Origin: Halothiobacillus sp.
Lineage (GTDB): Bacteria; Pseudomonadota; Gammaproteobacteria; Halothiobacillales; Halothiobacillaceae
DNA: 63,101 nt
Reading direction: 5' to 3'
Assembly (NCBI GenBank): GCA_020061705.1
Contig: JAGUXT010000019.1
Location: 1 to 63,101, forward strand
The position numbers and the translations under genes are program-made. Under the pieces are notes generated by a model. That model saw only the letters and a list, made by a program, of their open reading frames with translations, had not been told where the DNA came from and ran no database searches. Below are positions 5,541 to 25,874 of the stretch, piece by piece (the first letter of the stretch is position 1; each line of letters begins with the position of its first letter).

Positions 5541-6020
5541 TCAAAACCCGCCATAACTCACCGCAAGAATCACATACACCCGCTCACCCGAAGGCAGGAG
5601 AACACGCACCTCATCCCCCTCGCAGCGGCGCAACAAGGCCCGTGCCATCGGTGAATCAAGGCTGATCCAGTTGCGTTTGGGGTCAAATTCATCGGGGCCG
5701 ACGATGCGTAGCTCGATTACCAGGCCGTCGTCATCTTCAAGTTGCACCCATGCGCCAAAAAAGATACGAGAAGTGTCTGAAGGTGTGGCGTTGACCACCG
5801 TCATGCCCTCCAACCGTTTGCGCAAGAAGCGCACTCGGCGGTCGATTTCACGCAGCATTTTCTTGCCGTAAATATATTCGGCATTTTCCGAACGGTCGCC
5901 CATGGCGGCGGCTTCGGATACGGCCTGCACGACTTTGGGGCGCTGCACGCGCCATAGGTCGTTCAGCTCGTCCGTGAGGCGGGCGTGCCCTTCGGGGGTT
6001 ATGTACTTCGAGGTGCTCAT
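5541..6020 (-). CDS. greB: Transcription elongation factor GreB
   Basis: GreB rescues backtracked RNA polymerase by inserting its coiled coil into the secondary channel and stimulating cleavage of the nascent RNA. The 159 residues have the family layout: N-terminal [14 protein letters not shown], a coiled coil with the acidic tip region ([15 protein letters not shown]) and a C-terminal FKBP-like domain containing [12 protein letters not shown]. The YIYGKK segment favours GreB over GreA. The start is preceded by AGGA at about ten bases. It stands alone, between a long repeat downstream and a small palindromic repeat upstream. Confidence 0.93.
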
Positions 6021-6037
6021 GAAAGAAAAATCCTATA

Positions 6038-6113
6038 TTTAGCCGCAGAGAACACTGAGTTCACCGAGAAATATATGTCTTTGGGATTTATCTCCGTGGC
6101 CTCTGTGGCTAAA
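6038..6113. repeat. Family B palindromic repeat, copy 1
   Basis: A 76-base element with inverted ends TTTAGCCGCAGAGAACAC and GTGGCCTCTGTGGCTAAA. It fills the gap between greB and the DHH gene. The same ends recur at 14819-14902. Confidence 0.75.
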
Positions 6114-6116
6114 AAT

Positions 6117-7385
6117 TCAGGCCTTTTCCACCGGCTCGACTTCGATCTGCTCCGGTGGTTGCATCTGGCACGTTTGTACCAAGCCTTTTTTTTCGGTGAC
6201 GGCCATGCTAATCGCACGCATGGCTTGATCGACATCTTTCAGGCGGTTGTCGCGCAATACGCCACCGGCTGCACCGGGATGACCGCCGCCCTCAAAGTAC
6301 ATGCCGGAGATAATGCCGACATCCACGTTCTCATTGGCACGCAGTGACATACGCCCGTTGCCGCCAACGCGAATCGCGATATCCATTTGTTTGCGCTGCT
6401 CCATTAGTACCATGGCCACGCCACGAAACACATCGTGCGGCCAGTTGAAGAAAATACCCGTGCGGTAGCTGTCGATGCGTAGCATGGGGATATCTTCGGG
6501 CAGGACAGCATCAGCCGCGAGACGGTGAAATTTTTCCTTGAGGGTATTTTCCGGGTTTTCACATAAATCGCTGGCAATACGCTCGCGCAAAAAAGCCTTG
6601 CGGTAGTCGTATACACCGCGCTCCAACTCTTCAAGCGTGGCACCTTGCTCCATAAGTTGGAAAAAAGATTCCATCATGTGAAAACGGTAGTCACGCTTGA
6701 GTTCAACCAGAGGTGGGGCGAGTTGGTCGTCCTCCATAATCAGTCCAATCAGGTAAATCGCCCGATTGAAGCGCGGATCGTCTTTCAGCCAGCGGTCGCC
6801 GACATCGACGAATTCTGCACGGCTGGCATACAGCGCGCGCTGGTCGTCGCCCAGATAGGGCGCTATCGCCTCGAACGCAAGGCGCGTGGCACAGCGTTCA
6901 GTGTCGAGGTAGTACCAGTCGTATTTTTTGGCGGAGTCTTCTCCCGTGGCGTGATGGTCGAGCAGTTGCAACAGCGGTTTGATTGGTTCGGCTTCCGGTT
7001 CGTCGCTGCTGGCGGTGAGTGCGCCCTTGAGCATGGCCGCCATTTCGGGAGAAAGCAGGCTGGTTTTGGCAGGCGCTTTGCCCGTTTTTTTGCTGCTTGA
7101 GGGACTGCCTTTGCCTAAATTCTGAATCCGCTGCGCTACCATGTCGGATTGCTCGAGCGTTAAATTCAGGTCGGTAATCAACAACATGCACGGCTCTTTG
7201 GCCTTGGACATATCATCAAAAATTTGATCCAGCGCGTAGGGAATATCGCGGTAATCAGCATTGTAATAACGTGCGCGGTAGCCTGCCGCACGGGTCATGT
7301 ATTGCGCGCCGTAGCCATCAAGGTCGATGTGGCTGAGGTGGAAAAGAAGAATGTCGGAAGGCTTGGGCAGAATGGGCGTGGTCAT
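6117..7385 (-). CDS. DHH/DHHA1-family phosphoesterase
   Basis: Cytoplasmic DHH-superfamily phosphoesterase of 422 residues; relatives hydrolyse nano-RNA, cyclic dinucleotides or single-stranded DNA using two Mn ions. Motif I is HIDLDGYGA near residue 18, the namesake LLDHHATGE is near 142, and the C-terminal DHHA1 substrate motif is EGGGHPGAAGG near 366. A low-complexity segment rich in Ser, Lys and Ala around residues 92-110 links the motifs and is unusual. The length exceeds NrnA (about 320), and RecJ is longer, so it belongs to a less studied subgroup. The substrate cannot be assigned. Confidence 0.85.
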   Translation of the reverse strand: MTTPILPKPSDILLFHLSHIDLDGYGAQYMTRAAGYRARYYNADYRDIPYALDQIFDDMSKAKEPCMLLITDLNLTLEQSDMVAQRIQNLGKGSPSSSKKTGKAPAKTSLLSPEMAAMLKGALTASSDEPEAEPIKPLLQLLDHHATGEDSAKKYDWYYLDTERCATRLAFEAIAPYLGDDQRALYASRAEFVDVGDRWLKDDPRFNRAIYLIGLIMEDDQLAPPLVELKRDYRFHMMESFFQLMEQGATLEELERGVYDYRKAFLRERIASDLCENPENTLKEKFHRLAADAVLPEDIPMLRIDSYRTGIFFNWPHDVFRGVAMVLMEQRKQMDIAIRVGGNGRMSLRANENVDVGIISGMYFEGGGHPGAAGGVLRDNRLKDVDQAMRAISMAVTEKKGLVQTCQMQPPEQIEVEPVEKA

Positions 7386-7481
7386 GCGGTGGAAGTAGCT
7401 TGAAAATAAAGGCAGCCATTGTGCCGCAGTGTGCAGCTTTACCCAAGATTGTTGACTGCGTGATGTGAAATATCACTATCA

Positions 7482-7560
7482 GGACTTACGCAAAAACACC
7501 CCAGCGTAGCTGTACTGTCTTCGTCGCTTTGCCTTGCCGGGGCGCTTTTGCGTAAGCCCT
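7482..7560. repeat. Family C small TIR element, copy 1
   Basis: A 79-base element in the 245-base gap between two minus-strand genes. Its ends are GGACTTACGCAAAA and TTTTGCGTAAGCCC, inverted copies of each other. The interior shares TGTACTGTCTTCGTCGCTTT and TGCCTTGCCGGGG with copy 2 at 19732-19837. No coding capacity. Confidence 0.75.
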
Positions 7561-7630
7561 AAATATTTTTGCCATAGCGAACACAGACAAAAACAACGCA
7601 TTCTTCTCTTTGGCTAATAGTGGCGCTGTT

Positions 7631-8539
7631 TCAGGCTGGCAGGCTGGCTTGCGCCACGCTGGCGGGCTCTTCGTGAATCATAATGTCGGCAGTGGGATAC
7701 GCGGTGCAAAGGACAGCTTTCACTTGGTCACCAATGTCATGCGCGGCGCGCAGCGGTAGGCGGTCGTCGAGCACGATGTAGAGCTCAAAGAAGTACACAT
7801 TGCCGGATTGACGGGTGCGCAGGCTGGCAATGTGCTGGACACCAGGTACATTCAAGGCCAATTCGCGGGCATGCTGCGCAATGTCATCAGGAAGTTCACG
7901 ATCCATAAGTTGATTGAGCGCCACGCGGGTGATTTGCACCGCGCTCCACGCAACATAGGCGGCAATCAGCAGGCCAAACAGCGCATCGGCCCGCGCCATG
8001 CCCCACGCGCTTAACAGTAGAGCAATAATGACCGCAAGATTGCTTAATAAGTCTGTCGCATAGTGCAATGCATCGGCTTGAATCGCGGTCGAGCCAGTGC
8101 GCCGCACCACCGAGTACTGAAACACCACTAAAAGCGCGGTTAAAACGATGGAGAACAGCATGACTGCAATGCCAAGGTCGGTGTTGGCAATCGGTTGCGG
8201 ATTGGTCAAACGTCCAATAGCCTGCAGGGTGAGCATTACAGCGGAACCAAGAATAAACATGGATTGTGCCAGAGCAGCGAGGGCTTCGGCCTTGCCGTGA
8301 CCGAAGCGATGGTCATGGTCGGGGGGGATTAGCGCCCAGCGCACCGCCAAAAAGGTGAGCATCGAAGCGATCAGGTCAGCCGAAGAATCCAGCAATGATG
8401 CCAGCAGGCTCACGGACTCAGTCAGCCACCAACCGCTGATTTTGACTAGAATTAGCACCAGGGCTACACCGAGGCTGGCTTGGGTGGCCAGGCGTAACAA
8501 CCTAGCGTGTGAGTCAGGATTGGACATGTGCGGTTTCAT
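7631..8539 (-). CDS. Cation diffusion facilitator (FieF/CzcD type)
   Basis: Inner-membrane divalent-cation/proton antiporter of 302 residues that exports Zn, Fe or related metals. It shows the multi-helix CDF core with the metal site DSSAD at residues 51-55 in the second helix and HYATD in the fifth. A HDHRFGHGKAE loop lies near 75-85, and a C-terminal cytoplasmic domain with HDIGD follows (about 210-300). The HYATD site plus HDHRFGHGK resembles FieF. An ATG four codons downstream is an alternative start. No metal regulator is adjacent. Confidence 0.9.
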   Translation of the reverse strand: MKPHMSNPDSHARLLRLATQASLGVALVLILVKISGWWLTESVSLLASLLDSSADLIASMLTFLAVRWALIPPDHDHRFGHGKAEALAALAQSMFILGSAVMLTLQAIGRLTNPQPIANTDLGIAVMLFSIVLTALLVVFQYSVVRRTGSTAIQADALHYATDLLSNLAVIIALLLSAWGMARADALFGLLIAAYVAWSAVQITRVALNQLMDRELPDDIAQHARELALNVPGVQHIASLRTRQSGNVYFFELYIVLDDRLPLRAAHDIGDQVKAVLCTAYPTADIMIHEEPASVAQASLPA

Positions 8540-8602
8540 TGGGTGATAATCAAATGCGTTTATTTGGGTATGTTTTTAGTTAATTAACGTAAGGAAGTAG
8601 TC

Positions 8603-8995
8603 ATGAAGCAAAGCATTTTGATGGAGCGTTATCCGGTTTTTGAGATGGAGCTTCCCAAGGTTGAAACCCGTTTGCAGAGCGTGGATGAGATTATCGCGTT
8701 TCTGCATGCCAAGATCGAAGCGCATCCTATCGCAGCTTACATCGGCACGTTCGATCATTTTGCCCATACCAAGGCGTTGCCGGAAGGCAAAATTGCCCCT
8801 GAAATTGTGGATGCCAAGCTGATCGTGTTCTGTTTTGGCTCGGCGCTGCCCAATCCGCACGTCATGGCCGTGCGCCCGCGCTCCATTGGCGTGGCCGATT
8901 TGGGTGACAAATTTGTGGTTAATTTCATGGAGCCACCGATGCCGGTTGCGACCACAGCGATGGAAGCCTGGGTGAAGGAGTTGAGGAACGCCTGA
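8603..8995 (+). CDS. Conserved protein resembling DUF6858
   Basis: A 130-residue soluble protein with no signal peptide or membrane helix. The sequence includes YPVFEMELPK at the start, IGTFDHFAHT in the middle and FCFGSALPNPHVMAVRPRS, then a C-terminal MEAWVKEL. I associate this pattern with DUF6858, a family I recall mainly from sulfur-oxidising bacteria, but that memory is not certain. A strong AAGGAAG site precedes the ATG. The histidines in FDHFAHT could bind metal. It has its own terminator 200 bases downstream and seems to be monocistronic. Function unknown. Confidence 0.65.
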   Translation: MKQSILMERYPVFEMELPKVETRLQSVDEIIAFLHAKIEAHPIAAYIGTFDHFAHTKALPEGKIAPEIVDAKLIVFCFGSALPNPHVMAVRPRSIGVADLGDKFVVNFMEPPMPVATTAMEAWVKELRNA

Positions 8996-17058: not shown

Positions 17059-17274
17059 TCAGAACAGGCGAGTGCGGCGTGCAGCTTCTTTTTGCAGGCG
17101 CTTTTCGTTGCGCTTGACCGCTGAACCAAGCTTGCGCTTGCGTTCGGTGGTTGGCTTTTCGTAGAACTCGCGTGCGCGCAGGTCGGTGATAACGCCGGCT
17201 TTTTCTACGGTGCGCTTGAAACGACGAATGGCAACTTCAAAAGGCTCGTTTTCTTTGATGCGGACGGAAGGCAT
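17059..17274 (-). CDS. rpsU: 30S ribosomal protein S21
   Basis: Small basic ribosomal protein of 71 residues that sits near the anti-Shine-Dalgarno end of 16S rRNA. It begins [20 protein letters not shown] and continues with [14 protein letters not shown], the standard gammaproteobacterial S21 sequence. The frame opens ten codons earlier, but the ATG at 17274 is preceded by GGAG at a good distance and gives the usual length. It is divergent from tsaD, a widely conserved neighbour pairing. Confidence 0.96.
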
Positions 17275-17447
17275 GAAGGCTCCAAATAGTGGTGTAAAAC
17301 TCAAGCCGACAAGATGCAGGATTGAATGATGCGGTGAGTGTCTGATTGACAGGACAAAATTGTTAGGCGCGGAATTATACGTCCTATGCCCGTTAATGCA
17401 ACAATAGCGCCCCTTTTTCCGCCGGGCAGCTAACTAGAGTGATTGAA

Positions 17448-18497
17448 ATGATTGTGCTTGGGATTGAAACATCGTGTGATGAAACCGCCTGCGCGCTGTA
17501 TTCGTCTGAGCGAGGTTTGATCGGTGATCGGGTGCTGACGCAGGCGATTCATGCTGAATATGGCGGGGTGGTGCCTGAGTTGGCCTCGCGCGACCATGTG
17601 CGGCATTTACTCCCAATGGTGGATGGATTGTTACGTGACTCGGGTGTGGCGCGAGAGGACATTGGTGGCGTGGCTTATACCGCAGGCCCCGGCCTTTTGG
17701 GGGCGTTGCTGGTGGGGTCGGCGTTTGGCGCAGGTTTGGCGTTTGCACTGGGCGTGTCGGCGATTGAAGTGCATCACATGGAAGGTCATGTGCTTGCGCC
17801 GATGCTGGATGATGCGAGCATCAAGCCGCCGTTTGTGGCCTTGCTGGTGTCGGGCGGGCATACCATGCTGGTGGCCGTGCCTGAAATCGGGCGTTACGAG
17901 GTGTTGGGCGAGAGCCTGGATGATGCAGTGGGCGAGGTGTTTGACAAGGTGGCCAAGCAAATGGGTTTGGGCTATCCCGGTGGCGCAGCCTTGGCCAAGC
18001 TGGCGGAATCGGGGCGCGCGCCTACTCACGCGGGTGCACAGGCCGGTGTACCGCCTTTTCCGCGTCCGATGACGGATCGACCTGGACTGGAGTTCAGCTT
18101 CAGCGGCCTGAAAACGCGCGCGATGCAGATTTTGCGTCAGGTCGAGGCGGGTGAGAGCCCTGAACAGGGGCGCGCCGATGTGGCGCGCGCCTTGCAGGAA
18201 GCGATGGTCGATACCCTGGTCATCAAATGCGTGCGCGCTTTGGAGCAGGTGGGAATGCGCAATGTCGTTGTGGCGGGCGGCGTGGGTGCCAATCTGTATT
18301 TGCGCGAACGTTTGAGCGCGACTTTGGAGCAGCGCGGTGGGCGCGCCTATTTCCCGCGTCAGGCTTTTTGCACGGATAACGCCGCCATGATCGCCTATGC
18401 GGGCTGGTTACGCCTGAACGCAGGGCAGGGGGCTTTGGTCAGCAGTTTTGCGGCACGCGCGCGCTGGCCTCTGGATCAGTTGTCGCCGTTGGCTTGA
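17448..18497 (+). CDS. tsaD: tRNA N6-threonylcarbamoyladenosine transferase
   Basis: Catalytic subunit that transfers threonylcarbamoyl from its AMP adduct to A37 of ANN-decoding tRNAs, working with TsaB and TsaE. The ASKHA fold shows [12 protein letters not shown] at the N-terminus, the metal-binding HHMEGH near residue 109, [11 protein letters not shown], and [10 protein letters not shown] in the C-terminal half. An in-frame GTG at 17439 is possible, but ATG at 17448 gives the canonical MIVLGIETS start. Divergent from rpsU; its last 22 bases overlap convergent plsY. Confidence 0.96.
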
Positions 18498-19129
18498 GTG
18501 GAGCTGACTTGAGCGACAGTTGATTCCGCAGCGGCTTTTTTCTCGCCAATGCGGGTTTCCTGGCCTTGCAGCAAACGCTGGATATTACCGGCATGACGCC
18601 AGATCAGCAGTACGCTCATGATGACGATGGCGAGCAGAACCGGGTCACCAAGATGCAAAAGCCAGGCAATGAGCGGGGCGGCCAGTGCAGCGGTCAGCGC
18701 GGCGAGAGATGAGTAGCGCAAGCCAAACGCCATCGCCAGCCACACGGCCAGCGTGCCCAAGCCCAGCCACGGCGAAAGCCCAAGCAGTACGCCCAAAGCC
18801 GTGGCCACACCCTTGCCGCCCTTGAACTGGAAAAACACGGGGAAGATATGGCCGATAAAGGCCGCAAGCGCTGTCAATGCGATGACAAGCTCGCTGGCAT
18901 CCAGCGCGCGGGCGACAACCACGGGGATCAGACCCTTGAGCAAGTCGCCGATCAGGGTGGCCAGTGCGGCGAGCTTGTTGCCGGTGCGCAGGACGTTGGT
19001 CGCTCCGGGGTTGCCCGAGCCGATGGTGCGCGGGTCAGGCAGCCCAAAAAGGCGGCTGACCACCACGGCGGTGGCAATCGAGCCAAGCAGGTATGCGCCT
19101 ATCGGCAAGGCAAAATTGATCCAGTTCAT
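18476..19129 (-). CDS. plsY: Acyl-phosphate:glycerol-3-phosphate acyltransferase PlsY
   Basis: Inner-membrane enzyme that acylates glycerol-3-phosphate with acyl-phosphate in the first step of phospholipid synthesis. Hydrophobic, with about five helices over 217 residues. Motifs are [35 protein letters not shown] (acyl-phosphate/G3P site) and [19 protein letters not shown]. The C-terminal 25 residues are hydrophilic and not conserved. It is convergent with tsaD with 22 bases of overlap. Confidence 0.95.
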
Positions 19130-19171
19130 CAGAATAAAATGACTCGAAAGATGTTGAGGCGGAAATGCGGC

Positions 19172-19657
19172 CTATTGGATTTTCAGGTAGGCCGCGCCCT
19201 GCATTTGCAGGTCGGCAATTGTGGCGACACCTGAAGGCGTCAGACTGATGCCGGGGTAAACCTTGCCCTTGTCCAGCGCGATTTCGTCGCGTGTCTTGTC
19301 ACACAACAGCGCCTTGACGCCCTTGATCTTGACCAGGGTATCCAGTCGCCCCTTGAGTTCGGCGCGACGATCCAGCAAAGCCTTGTCGGCCACATACGGC
19401 GTGCCCTTGAGCGCGTCATCTGTCACAAAGCGTATCCCGTGACCGACAAAGACCACGGACACTTCGTAATCACGCAGTTCGCTTTCATAGGCGTTGATAA
19501 TGTTGTTGATTGAGGTCAGCGTGGCCGAATAGCGCGTGACATCATTAAAATCAACGTGATAAACCACTTTGGCCGGAGCGGCGTAAGCCATCGCGGAAAG
19601 CAGTAAAAAGCTCAGAGCGAAGAGACCCTTGAACCAGTTTCGTGTTGCGTGATGCAT
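19172..19657 (-). CDS. Exported DsrE-family protein
   Basis: A 161-residue protein of the DsrE/DsrF fold with a signal peptide (residues 1-26, ending AMAYAAPAK). The mature part reads VVYHVDFNDVTRYSATLTSINN, then YEVSVVFVGHGIRF, and ends with DLQMQGAAYLKIQ, a layout seen in exported DsrE-like proteins. A single mature cysteine (ALLCDKTRDE) may be the sulfur-handling residue. Cytoplasmic DsrE relays sulfur, but what exported relatives do is not established. GAGGAAAG precedes the ATG. It is followed by plsY without a shared frame. Confidence 0.78.
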   Translation of the reverse strand: MHHATRNWFKGLFALSFLLLSAMAYAAPAKVVYHVDFNDVTRYSATLTSINNIINAYESELRDYEVSVVFVGHGIRFVTDDALKGTPYVADKALLDRRAELKGRLDTLVKIKGVKALLCDKTRDEIALDKGKVYPGISLTPSGVATIADLQMQGAAYLKIQ

Positions 19658-19731
19658 TGTTTTCTTTCCTCGTGGGTGGATACGCCAAGTTTAACCATAA
19701 ATCAGGCAGAAGCTGTTAGCGATCATTCTTG

Positions 19732-19837
19732 GGACTTACGCAAAAACACCCCAGTGGCGTCGGCGTTAGAGCGACTCGCCGTACCAAGTGTACTGTCTTC
19801 GTCGCTTTGCCTTGCCGGGGAATTTTTGCGTAAGTCC
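19732..19837. repeat. Family C small TIR element, copy 2
   Basis: A 106-base element with ends GGACTTACGCAAAAA and TTTTTGCGTAAGTCC, near-perfect inverted repeats. It shares interior sequence with copy 1 at 7482-7560 but carries about 27 extra bases in the middle. It lies in the 298-base gap between two minus-strand genes, and nothing else recognisable is in that gap. Confidence 0.78.
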
Positions 19838-19955
19838 TGGTTCTTTTGCAGCGGCCAGTCATGCTGCGTTCGCCGCTGTCATGGCTCGACGTTCCACGGG
19901 TTGATGATCTTCAAGCCCGTAGCTGCAAAAGGATAGATGTCACGCGTTGCGGGCA

Positions 19956-21599
19956 TTACTCCAGTTGAATGCGATAGGGGCCTATGACGGAATTGAAAAG
20001 CATATCGCCGTCTTCAAGAAACTGCAGGATGGCGTAGGCACCGTTGCCTTTGTTGTTGTGGCCGAAAATGGTTCTGGACACAGTGGTGCCGGTTTCCCAG
20101 TCGAGTCCGGTCACTTCCCACCCATCCTTTTCGCTATATCCGTTTACGAAAACCGCGCTCGCGCCAGAGCTTGCCAGCGGAACCATGCTCACAGAGACAA
20201 CATCCCCGCGTGCCCATGCGGAATAGAAGCGGTTGTTCTTTTCGTTCCACACCATCTTCTCCACACCGCGCGGCGGGCGATGCACGGGGCCGACCGTCAT
20301 GACATCGATCACTCTGTCAGGATGCCCTTCTTCAATCAGGTTGTTTACGACGAACGCCCCATACCCCAAAGCAATGACTGTTTGCTCCGATTGAAGCCAG
20401 GGACGTTGTTCGGATATGCCGGCGGTAACCGGCTTTTGGTCGGCGATTCGAGGCGACAGCGCACCTTCAACCTTGCGTGCGTCAGCGGGAATGTCATTAC
20501 GCCAGAATGCCACCAGTCGCATGCGGTTTGCGCCATCAGTGATAAGCACCAGCTTGTCCTCATCCTCCCCGAACCCCATGAGCGTGGGTGTGGAACCGGT
20601 TCCGGTGCCTGCCTTGATGGCCGGTGGCCAGTCGCCACCTTCGTACTGTGCCTTCCATGCGCCATCTTTTGGGTCATCCGAAATCTTGCTGCCTGTCCAG
20701 ACCAGCTTATGCATCACTCCAGGTATGCGTGGCTTTTTCGAACCGGTAGCGACGTAGATACCGCCGTCCTTGTCAACGGCCAGAGAGTTTGTGGCCATCT
20801 GATTGTCATCGTCAAAGCGATAGAACAGCCCCTTCGTGAGAGCGGTATCAATAACCGCGATGCCATTCAGTGCGCCTAAAACGACATGCCCATCGTATGT
20901 CATGTTCATGCCGACCAGACCCACTCTTGGCTTCTCGCCGAAAACACTGGTTGGGGGGATGATGGTTGCCGTATCGAACTGAGCTTTGACCTCCAGACCC
21001 TTGGAAATATCTTTGGGGTCTTTCCGTCCAATGGCTGAAACAATCGTTCCCGCGTTTGCATAAACAACGTCCTGGTTGGACACCAACGCATAAATACCAG
21101 CAGGCATGATACTGCCCGGCGAATCTCCGAGAATCTTCTTGAGGTGTTCCTCGGCACTCTTCATGTCGCGGTACTGGTAAGCGACAATCTTGTTCAGTGC
21201 ATCCAGTGACCTGCGCTGTGCGCCGGGAAGATCAATATCCGCAACCTTGTTCCAACGCTTTCCCCGCGCATCAATCAGGGCTACGCGATCCGTGGAGACA
21301 GACCAGAAATAACCGGGAGTCGCCGAAGCATAGGTGGCATTGTTAACCGGGCCGCCCCAAACGGGAACCAGGGATTCCAGATCGATGTGCTGCGTCTTGA
21401 GCGGAATCCGGTAAGGAATGCTGTTCTGCTTGGCCGGATTGATATGGGTGACCCCGTAGATATCCGCCGATAAAAACAGATTCCGCTCAGGGCGCTGTTG
21501 CGCTGTGGCAGCGCAGGCAAAAAAGGCGATGGACAGAAACGCCAAACACGAGGCTAGTTTGTGAGGGAGCATTGCCGACTTACCAAGCGATTTCATCAC
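19956..21599 (-). CDS. Secreted protein of unknown function, probable beta-propeller
   Basis: A 547-residue exported protein that I cannot assign to a named family. The signal peptide spans about residues 1-33 (ending ACAATAQQ). The rest is rich in short beta-strand-like repeats with Gly-Asp turns, such as YDGHVVLGALNGIAVID, DKDGGIYVATGSKKPR and DKLVLITDGANRM, as in SMP-30-like or quinoprotein-type beta-propellers. No CxxCH haem motif or PQQ-specific signature is seen. The start is certain: a full AAAGGAGGT lies five bases before the ATG at 21599, suggesting strong translation. It appears monocistronic. Confidence 0.75.
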   Translation of the reverse strand: MMKSLGKSAMLPHKLASCLAFLSIAFFACAATAQQRPERNLFLSADIYGVTHINPAKQNSIPYRIPLKTQHIDLESLVPVWGGPVNNATYASATPGYFWSVSTDRVALIDARGKRWNKVADIDLPGAQRRSLDALNKIVAYQYRDMKSAEEHLKKILGDSPGSIMPAGIYALVSNQDVVYANAGTIVSAIGRKDPKDISKGLEVKAQFDTATIIPPTSVFGEKPRVGLVGMNMTYDGHVVLGALNGIAVIDTALTKGLFYRFDDDNQMATNSLAVDKDGGIYVATGSKKPRIPGVMHKLVWTGSKISDDPKDGAWKAQYEGGDWPPAIKAGTGTGSTPTLMGFGEDEDKLVLITDGANRMRLVAFWRNDIPADARKVEGALSPRIADQKPVTAGISEQRPWLQSEQTVIALGYGAFVVNNLIEEGHPDRVIDVMTVGPVHRPPRGVEKMVWNEKNNRFYSAWARGDVVSVSMVPLASSGASAVFVNGYSEKDGWEVTGLDWETGTTVSRTIFGHNNKGNGAYAILQFLEDGDMLFNSVIGPYRIQLE

Positions 21600-21668
21600 T
21601 GACCTCCTTTCTCCATGAACCGAATCTGTAACTTCAAATTTCCGAGCGCATGAACGGGGATCAGTGGG

Positions 21669-22391
21669 TCAGACTCGGTGGTTTTGTCCTGATTCGTCCC
21701 GTTGACCTGATTTCCTGTCGCCGCCTTTGGGAAGTGGGCTGGCGCGGCGGTTGAGCTGTGCTTCGATCCTGCTTTTGAAGTGCTCGCTCCCCAGCACCCA
21801 TGCCTTGTTGATGGATGATCTGACGTCCTCCAGCGTTTTTTCGTCCAATGCCGCCGCGAACAAGGCCTGGTAAGCGGCTTGTCGCTCATCGTCTGAGCCG
21901 CCCAATGCGAGAAAAAGCGGGTGAGGTGTCAGCCGTACGTCATTCTCGCCCAGCGCATTGCCCCGGTAGCTTGACCATGGATACTCCGCCGGATGCGCAA
22001 CCATATTGGCTCGCACCGGATTAAGCTCGATATAGCGGTAGCATGTCAGCGCATAGGCATCGCTATCAATCAGGCTGGCCTTGTAGCGCCCTTCCCAAAG
22101 CGTACCGCTGCGGCGGTAAGTGGAGTTGAAATACTGGACGTAATAGCGCCCCAGCATCTGGATCATCTTGGAAATACCATCCACCGAATGCGGCGTAACC
22201 AGCAGATGGACATGATTCGTCATCAACACATAGGCGTGGACGTCGCATGAGTGCTTCCTGGCCGCATCCTGCAATTTGTCGAGGTAAAAACGGTAGTCCT
22301 CATCAAAGTTGAAAATTGGATCGCGGTTATTGCCACGCACAATCACATGCTGGGGATGACCAGGCAGGACAAAACGCGGGAGACGTGCCAT
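21669..22391 (-). mobile_element. REP-associated tyrosine transposase (RAYT), full length
   Basis: Y1-family single-strand transposase of 240 residues. RAYTs are HUH nucleases that act on REP-type palindromes and are usually single-copy and domesticated. N-terminal MARLPRFVLPGHPQHVIVRG, the HUH pair in MTNHVHLLVTP near residue 60, a likely catalytic Tyr within GRYYVQYFN, then GTLWEGRYKASLI and YRYIELNPVRANMV follow the family. The C-terminal 60 residues are a poorly conserved basic tail. A second, truncated copy lies immediately upstream and related 45-base repeats flank it. Confidence 0.9.
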
Positions 22392-22426
22392 GGGGTGGGA
22401 TGATTGAAGTTAGGGAAGCGTGGAGT

Positions 22427-22470
22427 AACGGCTAAGGGGCGGGAAATCAATCGAGTCTGACCCCATTGAT
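22427..22470. repeat. RAYT-associated 45-base repeat, unit 1
   Basis: Contains TAACGGCTAAGGGG followed by AATCAATCGAGTCTGACCCC. Related units lie at 22486-22530 and 23020-23064. The reverse complement GGGTCAGACTCG also appears once just beyond the other end of the full-length RAYT (about 21667-21680). Confidence 0.75.
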
Positions 22471-22485
22471 TTGCATTGATTAGGG

Positions 22486-22530
22486 TAACGGCTAGGGGAT
22501 AGGAAATCAATCGAGTCTGACCCCATTGAT
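22486..22530. repeat. RAYT-associated 45-base repeat, unit 2
   Basis: TAACGGCTAGGGGATAGGAA followed by the shared ATCGAGTCTGACCCCATTGAT segment. Its end marks the break point where the truncated RAYT loses homology to the intact copy. Confidence 0.75.
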
Positions 22531-23019
22531 CCATCATTCTCGCCCAGCGCATTGCCCCGGTAGCTTGACCATGGATACTCCGCCGGATGCGCAACCATAT
22601 TGGCTCGCACCGGGTTAAGCTCGATATACCGATAGCACGTCAGCGCGTAGGTATCGCTATCGATCAGGCTGGCCTTGTAGCGCCCTTCCCACAGTGTTCC
22701 GCTGCGGCGGTAAGTGGAATTGAAATACTGGACGTAATAACGCCCCAGCATCTGGATCATTTTGGAAATGCCATCCTCCGTATGCGGCGAAACCAGTAGA
22801 TGGACATGATTCGTCATCAATACATAGGCGTGGATGTCGCATGAGTGCTTCTTGGCGGCATCCTGCAATTTGTCGAGGTAAAAACGGTAGTCTTCGTCGG
22901 CGTTGAAAATGGGATCGCGATTATTGCCGCGCACAATCACATGTTGTGGATGGCCGGGCAGGACAAAACGCGGGAGACGTGCCATGGGATGGGCTTATCG
23001 AAGTGTGGGAAGCGTAGGG

Positions 23020-23064
23020 TAATGGCTAGGGGATAGGAAATCAATCGAGTCTGACCCCATTGAT
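23020..23064. repeat. RAYT-associated 45-base repeat, unit 3
   Basis: TAATGGCTAGGGGATAGGAA followed by the shared ATCGAGTCTGACCCCATTGAT segment. It lies just upstream of the truncated RAYT, at the same place relative to its start as unit 1 relative to the intact RAYT. Confidence 0.75.
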
Positions 23065-23099
23065 TCCTTAAACCGTGGTCCGCGATTGATTTTGCAGTG

Positions 23100-23471
23100 T
23101 TATTGCAAAGATTGATTCAGCGCGGCGCTTGACTGATTGATGCGCTTGACACGGTGGCTTCCTGGCAATGCAATCCGGCGCTGTATGGATTGAAAATCAC
23201 CATCGGTAATGGCTCGGCGAAAATTGAAAAGCTCGTTTTCTGCCTTGCCATTAAGCGTTAGCTCAAGCTCCTCCAAGTGGGAAACGATGATAAATGATTG
23301 GGCGTTTGAATCCTCGTTTTCGGCAGATGCCCAGTACTCTAGGGCTTTGTCAGTAATAGAGCGCACCGCTTGCCTTAATTCCCTCTTCGCCTCGATATGT
23401 TTGCCAAAATAAAAACCGCCCAAAGTCAGGGCGGCTGTTATTACAATATTGACGATCTCAGTCCAGTTCAT
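23100..23471 (-). CDS. Small membrane-anchored protein of the STAS/HATPase cassette
   Basis: A 123-residue protein I do not recognise. One N-terminal membrane helix (about residues 5-23, IVNIVITAALTLGGFYFG) is followed by a charged, probably helical cytoplasmic part (KHIEAKRELRQAVRSITDK, then SHLEELELTLNGKAENE). Its ATG overlaps the stop of the STAS-like gene by four bases, so it is probably co-translated. It could anchor the cassette at the membrane or be its output component. Base composition of the cassette looks more AT-rich than flanking genes, suggesting acquisition. Confidence 0.65.
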   Translation of the reverse strand: MNWTEIVNIVITAALTLGGFYFGKHIEAKRELRQAVRSITDKALEYWASAENEDSNAQSFIIVSHLEELELTLNGKAENELFNFRRAITDGDFQSIQRRIALPGSHRVKRINQSSAALNQSLQ

Positions 23472-23833
23472 GATGCTGCATCGGCGCTATCGATATAATC
23501 CCATGCGTCACGCACAGGGCTTTTCAGGCGTGAGCGCAGTTCGATTTTCTGGTGCATTTCTTCCTTGCTGAATGCGCCCATACGCACCAGACCGCCAAAG
23601 GCTTCTTCGAGGAAGGATGAGCCATACCCTACCACACCGTCCATTTCGACAATGACGCGATCATACTTTTCGAGAGCGGGGCGCAGCAGCTCATCACGAA
23701 AACGTGCACCAGTATTGGGACCATCTTCAAGGAAACGCCCTGCCGGAAAGCGGGAGAATTGCTTGGCAATATTGATAATGGCGGTAGACATGTCTTGAAT
23801 CATGTAGGTCTCGTTTGTAATGGGATCATCCAT
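23468..23833 (-). CDS. STAS-like (DUF4325) protein
   Basis: A 121-residue protein resembling DUF4325, a STAS-like domain. The diagnostic stretch is FRDELLRPALEKYD, then VIVEMDGVVGYGSSFLEEAF around residues 60-79. In SpoIIAA-type anti-anti-sigma factors the corresponding loop carries the phosphorylated serine, so Ser in YGSSF is a candidate site. It overlaps the upstream ATPase gene by 34 bases and the downstream membrane protein gene by four. I infer that it is the phosphorylatable or binding partner of the ATPase encoded just before it. Confidence 0.75.
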   Translation of the reverse strand: MDDPITNETYMIQDMSTAIINIAKQFSRFPAGRFLEDGPNTGARFRDELLRPALEKYDRVIVEMDGVVGYGSSFLEEAFGGLVRMGAFSKEEMHQKIELRSRLKSPVRDAWDYIDSADAAS

Positions 23834-24834
23834 CCGATGACCGTTCCCTGTATGGCGTCGCGATGGCTTTTATGATAGTCCTGTTGGCCGCTTTTGAAAA
23901 CATACCGGCCACGATCACTGCATACCATCAGGCCGCCTCCATTTTCTTCTGCGGCTTGTCTGAGCTTAGCCATGCCCTTGCCGCGATGTCGCTCATGTGT
24001 GCGTGAACGCGCGTGTTCAATTGTGGCTTGAATGATGCTTCCATCATCGTTGCTTATGCTCTGTCTAACGTTTTCCCACCAACCTTTACGTTGCACGGTG
24101 GACGGAATGCCAAGACCGAGGTCACATATGACAATGACCATGCGCTGATCAACCACGCCGAAAAACATCCACCAACGACGATCATCAGGAAATATAGCAT
24201 TGTGTCCGCGCATAATATCTTGGTCATAGGCGTGGCTGTAGGCATTGTCGATGGCTTCGGTCATGGCGTTAAACAATACATTACGTGACTCCTCGCTCAT
24301 CTGTGTTTCATTACACAACGATTCGAAGTCCGCACCGACGTCGCTTGCATCGACACTTGCGCCAGATATGCAGCGCCACAGTCGCACATCGTCACGGGTG
24401 ATGGGGATGGTGTGATGAAAGCCCAGTTTTTCAGCTAGGCCAATTTGCTGCAAAACTTGCCGTACACGGTCAGAGCGTACGTTAACGGCTTTGATGCTGA
24501 TTGATGGAGCCTTGGCGCGAATAAGGTCGGCAAGAGCTAGTAGATAGATCATTCCCATTGAATCGGGGTATGTTGTTTTGCTGAAATCCAGCACGATCTT
24601 GGTGCGTTGTAGCACCGTCTGAGCAATGATTTGCTCTACCGCGTTCAGTGTTTCTGTGCGTCCCTTTCCTTCTTCAAGACCGATTTTTTCAGGCATGATA
24701 ATTCGGCTTGGGTGTATCGAGTGGGTCTTGCGAAGAGCTTTTTTACGTCGAAAGCGGATTGATCGCATGTGACGCTTGGTGATGATTTTTCTTTCGATAC
24801 GCCTTGACTTATAGCGTTTCGGGCTTCGATTCAT
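23800..24834 (-). CDS. STAS plus histidine-kinase-like ATPase protein with basic N-terminus
   Basis: A 344-residue protein. Residues 1-45 are strikingly basic (RYKSRRIERKIITKRHMRS, then FRRKKALRK) and could bind nucleic acid. Residues 75-135 look like a STAS domain (VLDFSKTTYPDSMGMIYLLA). Residues about 190-335 form a GHKL ATPase: N-box AMTEAIDNAYSHAY, G1 box DLGLGIP, and RGKGMAKLRQAAEENGGG as the G2 region. No phospho-accepting His dimerisation domain is visible, so it resembles SpoIIAB/RsbW-type anti-sigma kinases rather than a two-component sensor. First gene of an overlapping three-gene cassette. Confidence 0.78.
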   Translation of the reverse strand: MNRSPKRYKSRRIERKIITKRHMRSIRFRRKKALRKTHSIHPSRIIMPEKIGLEEGKGRTETLNAVEQIIAQTVLQRTKIVLDFSKTTYPDSMGMIYLLALADLIRAKAPSISIKAVNVRSDRVRQVLQQIGLAEKLGFHHTIPITRDDVRLWRCISGASVDASDVGADFESLCNETQMSEESRNVLFNAMTEAIDNAYSHAYDQDIMRGHNAIFPDDRRWWMFFGVVDQRMVIVICDLGLGIPSTVQRKGWWENVRQSISNDDGSIIQATIEHARSRTHERHRGKGMAKLRQAAEENGGGLMVCSDRGRYVFKSGQQDYHKSHRDAIQGTVIGWMIPLQTRPT

Positions 24835-25052
24835 ACCATCTCGCTATGTTTGGAGAGATCAAAAGGGTCATTCTTAGCTGATTAGTCAGAAATTAAGTTT
24901 TTTCCAAATCTCAAGCGCCTGCTTTCATGACTTGGGTTATCACACCCATCGTCGCTAGCAGTCGCCCGCTGAGTTTAGCTTCTTTTTGGATGATTGAGCA
25001 GTGTGTTCTCGTGTAGCATCCATGGGTTTTTGCATGTTGGTGGGTATGTACC

Positions 25053-25874
25053 TTGGTAGATCGTGGCGAGGATTTGGCTGGGCGGCCTGTGGTGTGGTTG
25101 CATGGTTGGGGCATGAGTCCGGCGATTTGGCAGGCGGTGCCGGAGTTTGCTCGCTTTGATTCCCATGCCCTGGCCTTGCCGGGGCATGGCGGCGAGGCCA
25201 ATGGTCAGGCCAATAATGAAGCCTGGGATGAGGCGCTGGGGTCGGATATTACGCGCTGGGCTTTGTGGTTGCTTGCGCGTGCGCCGCAACAGGCGATCTG
25301 GGTGGGTTGGTCGTTGGGTGGTTTGCTTGCGCTGGAGGTGGCGCGTCTTGCGCCGGAGCGGGTGGCGGGTTTGTGTTTGCTGGCCAGCAGTCCGTGTTTT
25401 ACGGTGCGCGAGGATTGGCCGTGTGCAATGAGTGCGGAGACTTTTGCGCAGTTTGAGGCGGGGCTGGTGCAGGATCATGCCTTGACCTTGCGCCGTTTTC
25501 TGGCTTTGCAGTCGGTGGGGGCGGACGATGCCAAGCAGGTGCGCACTCTTCTTAATGCGGCGGCGCTGGATGCGGCTTCGGCGGATGTGCGTGCCTTGAA
25601 GGCAGGATTGGAGGTGTTGCGTCAGGCCGATCTGCGGCAGGCGTTGGCTGAGTTGAAAATGCCGCTAGCGGTAATGTTGGGTGGGTTGGATCGCATTGTG
25701 CCGCCGTGTATGGCCGAGGTGTATCGGGATGTGCAGCCGGGGGCGAGGATTTTGACCCATGCGCGCGCCGGTCATGCTCCTTTTTTATATTGTGGTGGAG
25801 AGAGTGTGCAGGACTTATTGTCGAGGCTGCGAGCGCTACAGGATCCGATGCTAAGGGAGATTAGGCGTGAATGA
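25053..25874 (+). CDS. bioH: Pimeloyl-ACP methyl ester esterase BioH
   Basis: Alpha/beta hydrolase that removes the methyl group from pimeloyl-ACP methyl ester, ending the BioC-BioH route to pimelate for biotin. The oxyanion region VVWLHGWGMSPAIW is at residues 13-26. The triad appears as Ser in GWSLGG (about residue 90), Asp in GGLDRIVPP and His in RAGHAPFL. At 273 residues it fits the family. The start is probably TTG at 25053; no ATG lies in frame upstream of the fold. It is followed directly by bioC, whose GTG start overlaps this stop by eight bases. Confidence 0.88.
   Translation: MVDRGEDLAGRPVVWLHGWGMSPAIWQAVPEFARFDSHALALPGHGGEANGQANNEAWDEALGSDITRWALWLLARAPQQAIWVGWSLGGLLALEVARLAPERVAGLCLLASSPCFTVREDWPCAMSAETFAQFEAGLVQDHALTLRRFLALQSVGADDAKQVRTLLNAAALDAASADVRALKAGLEVLRQADLRQALAELKMPLAVMLGGLDRIVPPCMAEVYRDVQPGARILTHARAGHAPFLYCGGESVQDLLSRLRALQDPMLREIRRE

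Follow-up and report, generated by a model that had tools for sequence, protein, structure and literature searches.

We identified a three-gene cassette, A-B-C, in which a kinase-STAS pair of the kind already described in VapKSC and CapKS is followed by a membrane protein; what is new is this membrane output, which takes the place of a PIN RNase. The observation from which we started is right and, judging from sequence comparisons, more general than was initially visible. We put at about one half the probability that the cassette (K-S-M) is a VapKSC/CapKS-like three-part phospho-switch with a membrane output that would defend the host of a prophage or plasmid. With slightly less assurance, we propose that it represents an undescribed and widespread immune or addiction module – found mostly in prophages and plasmids of several phyla – in which a phosphorylatable STAS antitoxin would restrain a membrane effector of a new family until a nucleic-acid-sensing kinase frees it.

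An overlapping three-gene cassette in accessory DNA

The window analyzed here is a 63,101-nucleotide stretch of Halothiobacillus sp. DNA (contig JAGUXT010000019.1). The initial annotation described three overlapping genes in AT-richer DNA next to RAYT repeats. The ORF coordinates, all on the minus strand, agree with the first of these (Table 1). Overlaps of 34 bp between A and B and of 4 bp between B and C are right for the longest ORFs, the larger one depending on the start codon of B: the conserved part of B begins at about Met15 (nucleotide 23791), which may be the conserved start and would leave an 8-nt gap between A and B instead of the overlap. The cassette has a G+C content of 49.6% (versus 56.6% for the window) and is adjoined by two RAYT genes, and B is the sole DUF4325 gene in the genome.

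Table 1. Features of the cassette and its surroundings (window coordinates).
Feature	Position	Strand	Description
Gene A	24834-23800	minus	344 aa; VapK/CapK-like protein kinase (predicted): basic N-terminal helix, STAS domain, GHKL kinase domain
Basic N-terminal region of A, residues 1-42	24709..24834	minus	predicted helix 6-37, moderate confidence
GHKL kinase domain of A, residues 152-341	23812..24381	minus	N-box TEAIDNAYSHAY, G1 DLGLGIP, G2 RGKGM
Gene B	23833-23468	minus	121 aa; DUF4325 STAS-like, VapS-like
Ser72 and Ser73 codons of B (YGSSFLEEAFGG)	23615..23620	minus	Ser72 aligns with VapS Ser48
Gene C	23471-23100	minus	123 aa; membrane-anchored four-helix bundle (predicted), putative effector/output
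Predicted membrane segment of C, residues 6-22	23406..23456	minus	hydrophobicity; basic stretch behind
C family motif T-x-x-x-F (TDGDF here, residues 89-93)	23193..23207	minus	loop between helices 3 and 4
Accessory insertion carrying the cassette	19130..25090		between plsY and bioH; absent from same-genus genome G024

Window positions 17059-19129 and 25091-25363 align to positions 5649-7666 and 7743-7991 of locus L254 in the same-genus genome, where they lie 76 bp apart. Because the plsY and bioH blocks are separated by 76 bp in that genome and by 5.9 kb here, and because the G+C content is lower, the cassette region is accessory DNA. The 5.9-kb insertion contains a DsrE-like gene, a 547-aa ORF (19956-21599) that begins like a signal peptide and has no match in Pfam, the two RAYT genes and the cassette. 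The RAYT (Y1_Tnp) genes are arranged in tandem (21669-22985 and 22421-23064) and are recent duplicates, with 94% identity over 300 nt; three copies of a 50-nt repeat with TCAATCGAGTCTGACCCC lie in this region, the last just past the stop codon of gene C. A homologous cassette, with an A that is 45% identical, is present in a same-family Halothiobacillus MAG (G008 contig 18; JADQCE010000003.1).

The three genes recur as a unit

To collect homologous loci, we used the B family alone as the query and searched one genome each of 84,980 species along with IMG/VR. A search of viral contigs for close relatives of A found nothing, and the conserved B was used instead. This approach identified 321 B relatives in bacterial genomes and 165 in IMG/VR viral contigs. 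Within the best 160 loci, B is immediately preceded by a same-strand A gene in 151, and in 154 of the 158 loci with enough downstream sequence it is directly followed by a third ORF, the N-terminus of which is nearly always hydrophobic. The initial annotation had proposed co-occurrence across genomes as a check, and these counts show that genomes, prophages and plasmids alike carry the three families in one order. At the 137 loci where all three genes are complete, the median overlaps are 19 bp (A-B) and 4 bp (B-C), figures that are affected by the choice of start codons.

This arrangement is far from what chance would produce, because the same order repeats at more than 100 diverse loci. We also compared pairwise identities of the A, B and C families and found them to be correlated (0.68, 0.77 and 0.63; permutation maximum 0.08). 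Because of this correlation, we conclude from the aligned sequences that the three genes travel together and co-evolve.

Several loci depart from the common arrangement. Pseudomonas thivervalensis (L117) encodes an A-B fusion (7365-8300) followed by a C-type membrane protein (8303-8743). A recognizable A is missing beside B at L091, L098, L120 and L169, three of which have a C-like ORF; the resulting B-C pairs without a recognizable kinase (L091, L098 and L120; also L257, 3510-4232) come from Pseudomonadales MAGs and a Vibrio plasmid. In a same-family genome (G021; L012, 5731-6693), a kinase-like ORF has a stop inside the match and is likely a decayed copy of an A-family kinase. Marinitoga phage MPV1 (L010, 3855-6375), which is distant from the clade of the window cassette, has a kinase and STAS pair without a third gene immediately behind a DUF4041/T5orf172 protein.

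Gene A has the features of a STAS-GHKL serine kinase

Searched alone, A gives Pfam matches to STAS (E=5.8e-4) and HATPase_c_2 (E=0.014) that are both under the Pfam cut-offs, and it matches phrog_3364 with E=5.7e-49. Consistent with the STAS-like segment and GHKL boxes initially noted, an AlphaFold (AF2) model of A (pLDDT 88) and the family profile identify a GHKL domain of the SpoIIAB/RsbW type. The nearest fold is SpoIIAB (Z 13.9, 2.6 A over 130 residues), then RsbW (Z 12.7), and both rank ahead of CheA and histidine kinases. N197, H201, D238, G240, G285 and G287 are invariant in the family, and more than 95% of its members keep the N-box Glu and Asn, the G1 Asp-x-Gly and the G2 Gly-x-Gly (E193 in 132/138, N197 in 133/138, D238 in 134/138 and G287 in 136/138, the exceptions being mostly gaps). 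By these conserved active-site residues, A is predicted to be an intact kinase of the STAS-GHKL serine type.

The Pfam scores under the curated cut-offs would fit chance ORFs or the decay of a two-component kinase locus, the latter named by the initial annotation as its own possible refutation. All catalytic motifs, of the serine-kinase type, are kept across more than 130 loci and the three ORFs are conserved as a unit; this conservation of motifs and gene order rules the reading out and leaves it a negligible probability.

A second family feature, as read from the sequences, is the basic N-terminal helix. Lys and Arg make up 45% of the first 40 residues of A (versus 14% of its remainder), in line with the very basic N-terminus initially described; the family median is 32%, and the N-termini of two VapK-like proteins have 7.5% and 15%. 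Domain searches returned no HTH match on A, the N-terminus of which is predicted to form one basic helix (residues 6-37).

Because the serine of A's own STAS domain (PDSMG) is kept in only 29 of 138 relatives, this domain is probably a structural or ligand site. We also considered the column of VapK F54, the putative ssDNA-stacking aromatic, which we placed by inference from two VapK-like loci (L018 and L023) rather than from the Escherichia VapK sequence. In this column the window A has Tyr89, while the family has Lys or Arg in 63/138 and Tyr or Phe in ~16/138. The ligand of A or its binding mode may differ from that of VapK, because the aromatic column is mostly Lys/Arg and A has a basic helix.

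Gene B resembles the phospho-switch protein VapS

The initial assignment of B to DUF4325 holds (PF14213, E=9.9e-15, residues 42-100). B consists of DUF4325 only, and no DNA-binding domain was found in its 121 aa. When a clade-only B profile was compared to all PDB sequences, the best match was Escherichia VapS (9z7o, E=0.0088), with Ser72 placed over the VapS serine. A first B profile, which contained VapS-like members, matched VapS with E=1e-9; we rely on the clade-only value as the unbiased one. Position 66 of the 9z7o chain would correspond to VapS Ser48 if the 134-residue chain is the 116-residue protein with an 18-residue tag.

The serine-bearing loop pointed out in the initial annotation is thus aligned to the phospho-switch serine of VapS and is conserved. 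Ser72 is present in 131 of 138 family members and lies outside both search patterns; Ser73 is present in 138/138 but falls inside the genome search pattern (SFLEE), so that its conservation is partly imposed. We consider Ser72 a putative phospho-acceptor kept from a VapS-like switch.

Gene C encodes a predicted membrane-anchored helical bundle

C has one hydrophobic N-terminal segment, consistent with the single membrane helix initially proposed. The N-terminal segment has a KD value of 1.4 or more in 120/138 members. Because positive charge follows the membrane segment in 127/138 (charge after the segment exceeding charge before it), the positive-inside rule predicts that the bundle is cytoplasmic and anchored in the inner membrane. 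The AF2 model of C (pLDDT 96.5) has helices at residues 3-48, 55-73, 78-89 and 106-122. T89 and F93 of the family motif are conserved in 117/138 and 107/138 members, respectively.

We found no Pfam, PADLOC or shared PHROG family for C. A PIN domain was not matched in the window C and is absent from the families listed for 86 relatives, and no recognizable toxin fold was found. The PADLOC-DB 2.0 models left the cassette unmatched, the one hit, to C, being weak and attributable to chance (E=0.021). REase, holin and MSC matches were rejected as weak and not common to relatives. A Foldseek search of the C model against PDB and BFVD returned nothing with an E of 1e-3 or lower. The best VIA-align scores, with Z reaching 10, belong to generic bundles of helices (sensor domains like that of NarQ among them) and fall in the chance range for bundles. 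With no significant structural match, we claim no fold assignment for C.

The bundle matches bear on a reading of C as a sensor or anchor rather than an effector. C would then sense phage adsorption, DNA injection or membrane stress and tether B and A, and the output would lie elsewhere, at a target of B or the kinase in the host. C does resemble four-helix sensor bundles with membrane helices (NarQ, Z 10; Vc1313), and it is the fastest-evolving of the three families (mean pairwise identity 18% versus 27% and 45%), which might be expected if it sensed components of phages or membranes. However, for helical bundles a Z of 10 carries no significance, the charge pattern places the bundle in the cytoplasm, unlike periplasmic sensor domains, no fourth partner recurs among the upstream or downstream neighbors of the cassette, and the third gene of sister vapKSC operons is a toxin. 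We regard this reading as unlikely, if a serious alternative.

Relationship to VapKSC, CapKS and other systems

VapKSC consists of a STAS-GHKL kinase (VapK), a STAS antitoxin (VapS) and a PIN RNase (VapC) that is blocked by VapS, and it protects against a phage (Chambers et al., EMBO J 2026, PMC13373217). Phosphomimic and genetic evidence indicates that phosphorylation of VapS Ser48 releases VapC (PMC13373217). CapK is activated by ssDNA and the same is predicted for VapK; a response to DNA damage is reported or predicted for CapKS and VapKSC (PMC13373217). The initial annotation knew of no described system with a three-part layout of this kind, a claim that is not supported: the anti-phage VapKSC has the same kinase and STAS genes in first and second place and a PIN RNase in third (PMC13373217). 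As to a membrane-protein version, the words 'transmembrane' and 'membrane protein' are absent from the text of PMC13373217.

Like VapKSC, the cassette is a three-gene operon with a STAS-GHKL kinase first and a DUF4325 STAS protein with a conserved serine second, and it occurs in mobile and defense contexts. The two VapK-like loci match the same phrog_3364 as A but are distant – the clade-A HMM does not match L018 and gives 28 bits to L023 – and PF14213 is found both in B and in their vapS-like genes. Unlike VapKSC, the third gene encodes a predicted membrane-anchored helical bundle rather than a PIN-domain RNase, and the kinase has an extra basic N-terminal helix and, at the probable position of the ssDNA-stacking aromatic, a Tyr in the window but more often Lys or Arg in the family. 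In sister operons (L018, L023 and L234), members of the same A and B families precede a gene for a PIN-like protein, the L234 PIN call having been made by eye. Because these operons carry the PIN nuclease there, the third gene would be where the output sits. Because the defining VapC is absent, the cassette is not a member of VapKSC; it probably works like VapKSC.

CapK and CapS (PMC13373217) likewise pair a kinase with a STAS substrate, which is phosphorylated on a serine at the equivalent place. CapK is an HTH-STAS-GHKL protein, whereas A lacks the HTH, and CapS has a C-terminal wHTH and represses transcription, whereas B lacks a DNA-binding domain. The output of CapKS is the promoter of an adjacent immune operon, while the output here would be a protein within the operon.

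The initial annotation had compared the cassette to the SpoIIA and Rsb partner switches. The comparison is apt for the mechanism, but among known systems VapKSC/CapKS is a closer relative than a sigma-factor switch. SpoIIAB/SpoIIAA and RsbW/RsbV share with A and B a GHKL serine-kinase fold with intact N, G1 and G2 boxes and a STAS partner whose corresponding loop contains a serine. A classical switch, in which A would be an anti-sigma factor and B its antagonist, would account for these shared features, including the closeness of the A GHKL fold to SpoIIAB/RsbW. However, neither SpoIIAB nor RsbW has the fused STAS domain or the basic helix of A, the membrane component C is nearly always the third gene, and the closest PDB homologue of B is VapS rather than SpoIIAA or RsbV. 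No sigma factor is present in the window operon, and one sigma-70 gene was found among 118 upstream neighbors. We therefore rejected the sigma-factor switch, which we consider very improbable, for want of a recurring sigma factor and because of the fused STAS domain and the nearness of VapS to B.

To estimate how common the membrane form is, we examined 398 evenly sampled Pseudomonadota genomes. DUF4325 occurs in 29 of them, at 31 loci. From our reading of the downstream ORFs, we assigned ~9 of the 31 to the membrane form, 3 to the PIN/VapC form and ~10 to single-chain kinase-DUF4325 fusions. The membrane form is not rare, because it accounts for ~9/31 DUF4325 loci in this sample. The GHKL-DUF4325 fusions (L226, L228, L229, L235, L236, L237, L238, L240, L244 and L246) mostly lack a small third gene and are another undescribed arm of the DUF4325 family.

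Genes in the same order, next to the repressor region, are present in Francisella phage KIRK (Fhv_0046-0048; PMC7924643) and Marinobacter phage AS1 (AS1_41-39). The KIRK trio was described as an AS1_41-related hypothetical protein, a DUF4325 protein and a short TM protein – as hypothetical only, with no system recognized (PMC7924643). The exclusion genes of Pseudomonas phage Fc02 (PMC9936078) were considered as relatives and rejected, as their description does not fit the cassette.

Cassettes are carried by prophages and plasmids

Carriers of the cassette include Marinobacter phage AS1, plasmids of Acinetobacter, Vibrio, Novosphingobium and Leptospira, and phage-like regions of Helicobacter and Pasteurella. 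CI/S24 families are found among the upstream genes of cassette relatives, and a CI-like repressor is directly upstream and co-oriented in 18 of 129 loci (16 of 59 viral loci). From this position behind a co-oriented CI repressor, the cassette could be expressed in a lysogen. Downstream neighbors at some loci include AriA, NgoMIV, AbiLi and MADS; seen without a background comparison, these occasional defense genes are weak evidence alone for a defense role. The defense-type reading of the initial annotation is matched by a context of mobile elements (prophages, plasmids and islands) with some defense genes nearby. The commonest first genes downstream of C are SRAP (SOS-response-associated peptidase) and integrase, each at 5 of 118 loci, which fits a DNA-damage setting.

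The same context could point to a control circuit of the prophage or plasmid, in which the kinase would read DNA damage and tune lysogeny, induction or host lysis instead of combating other phages, with C as a holin- or antiholin-like timer. The many prophages in which the cassette comes right after a CI repressor of the same orientation (as in phage KIRK; PMC7924643), the reported or predicted response of CapKS and VapKSC to DNA damage, and weak single holin matches for C would be consistent with such a circuit. Yet the holin match occurs in only 1 of 84 C proteins, the relative VapKSC protects against phage, and plasmids and chromosomal sites free of phage genes, such as the plsY-bioH site in the window, carry the cassette by itself as well. 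We consider a control circuit distinctly unlikely.

A model for cassette function

We propose a phospho-switch that is built like VapKSC and probably serves prophage or plasmid defense. A defense role is suggested by the relatives of the cassette, its carriage by prophages (often behind the CI repressor) and the occasional defense genes next door. At rest, B would bind C and keep it inactive, as VapS keeps VapC. A signal – probably nucleic acid, sensed by the STAS/GHKL groove of A and its basic N-terminal helix – would cause A to phosphorylate B at Ser72, and phosphorylated B would let go of C. Freed C would then act at the inner membrane, most simply by oligomerizing and impairing it, and the infected cell would be arrested or killed. 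In this way the cassette would shield a lysogen or plasmid host from other phages. What the comparisons show is that the kinase and acceptor residues and the gene order are kept, that the three families co-evolve and that sister operons differ in their third gene; the fast divergence of C also speaks for the model. Against it count the want of a recognizable toxin fold in C, the prevalence of Lys/Arg in the column of the VapK aromatic, and the few loci that have B beside no recognizable A. We infer how B and C interact, which way control runs, the damage to the membrane and the nature of the signal.

Implications

These results suggest that the kinase-STAS pair known from VapKSC and CapKS serves bacteria and phages as a general control module, to which they couple different outputs. 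An unannotated membrane family would be among the commonest of these outputs, on the basis of ~9 of the 31 DUF4325 loci having the membrane form versus 3 having the VapC form in the 398 Pseudomonadota genomes. With one predicted phospho-serine in a small three-gene cassette, the model lends itself to testing by point mutations. It offers a testable function for hundreds of proteins annotated as 'STAS-like domain-containing' or hypothetical.
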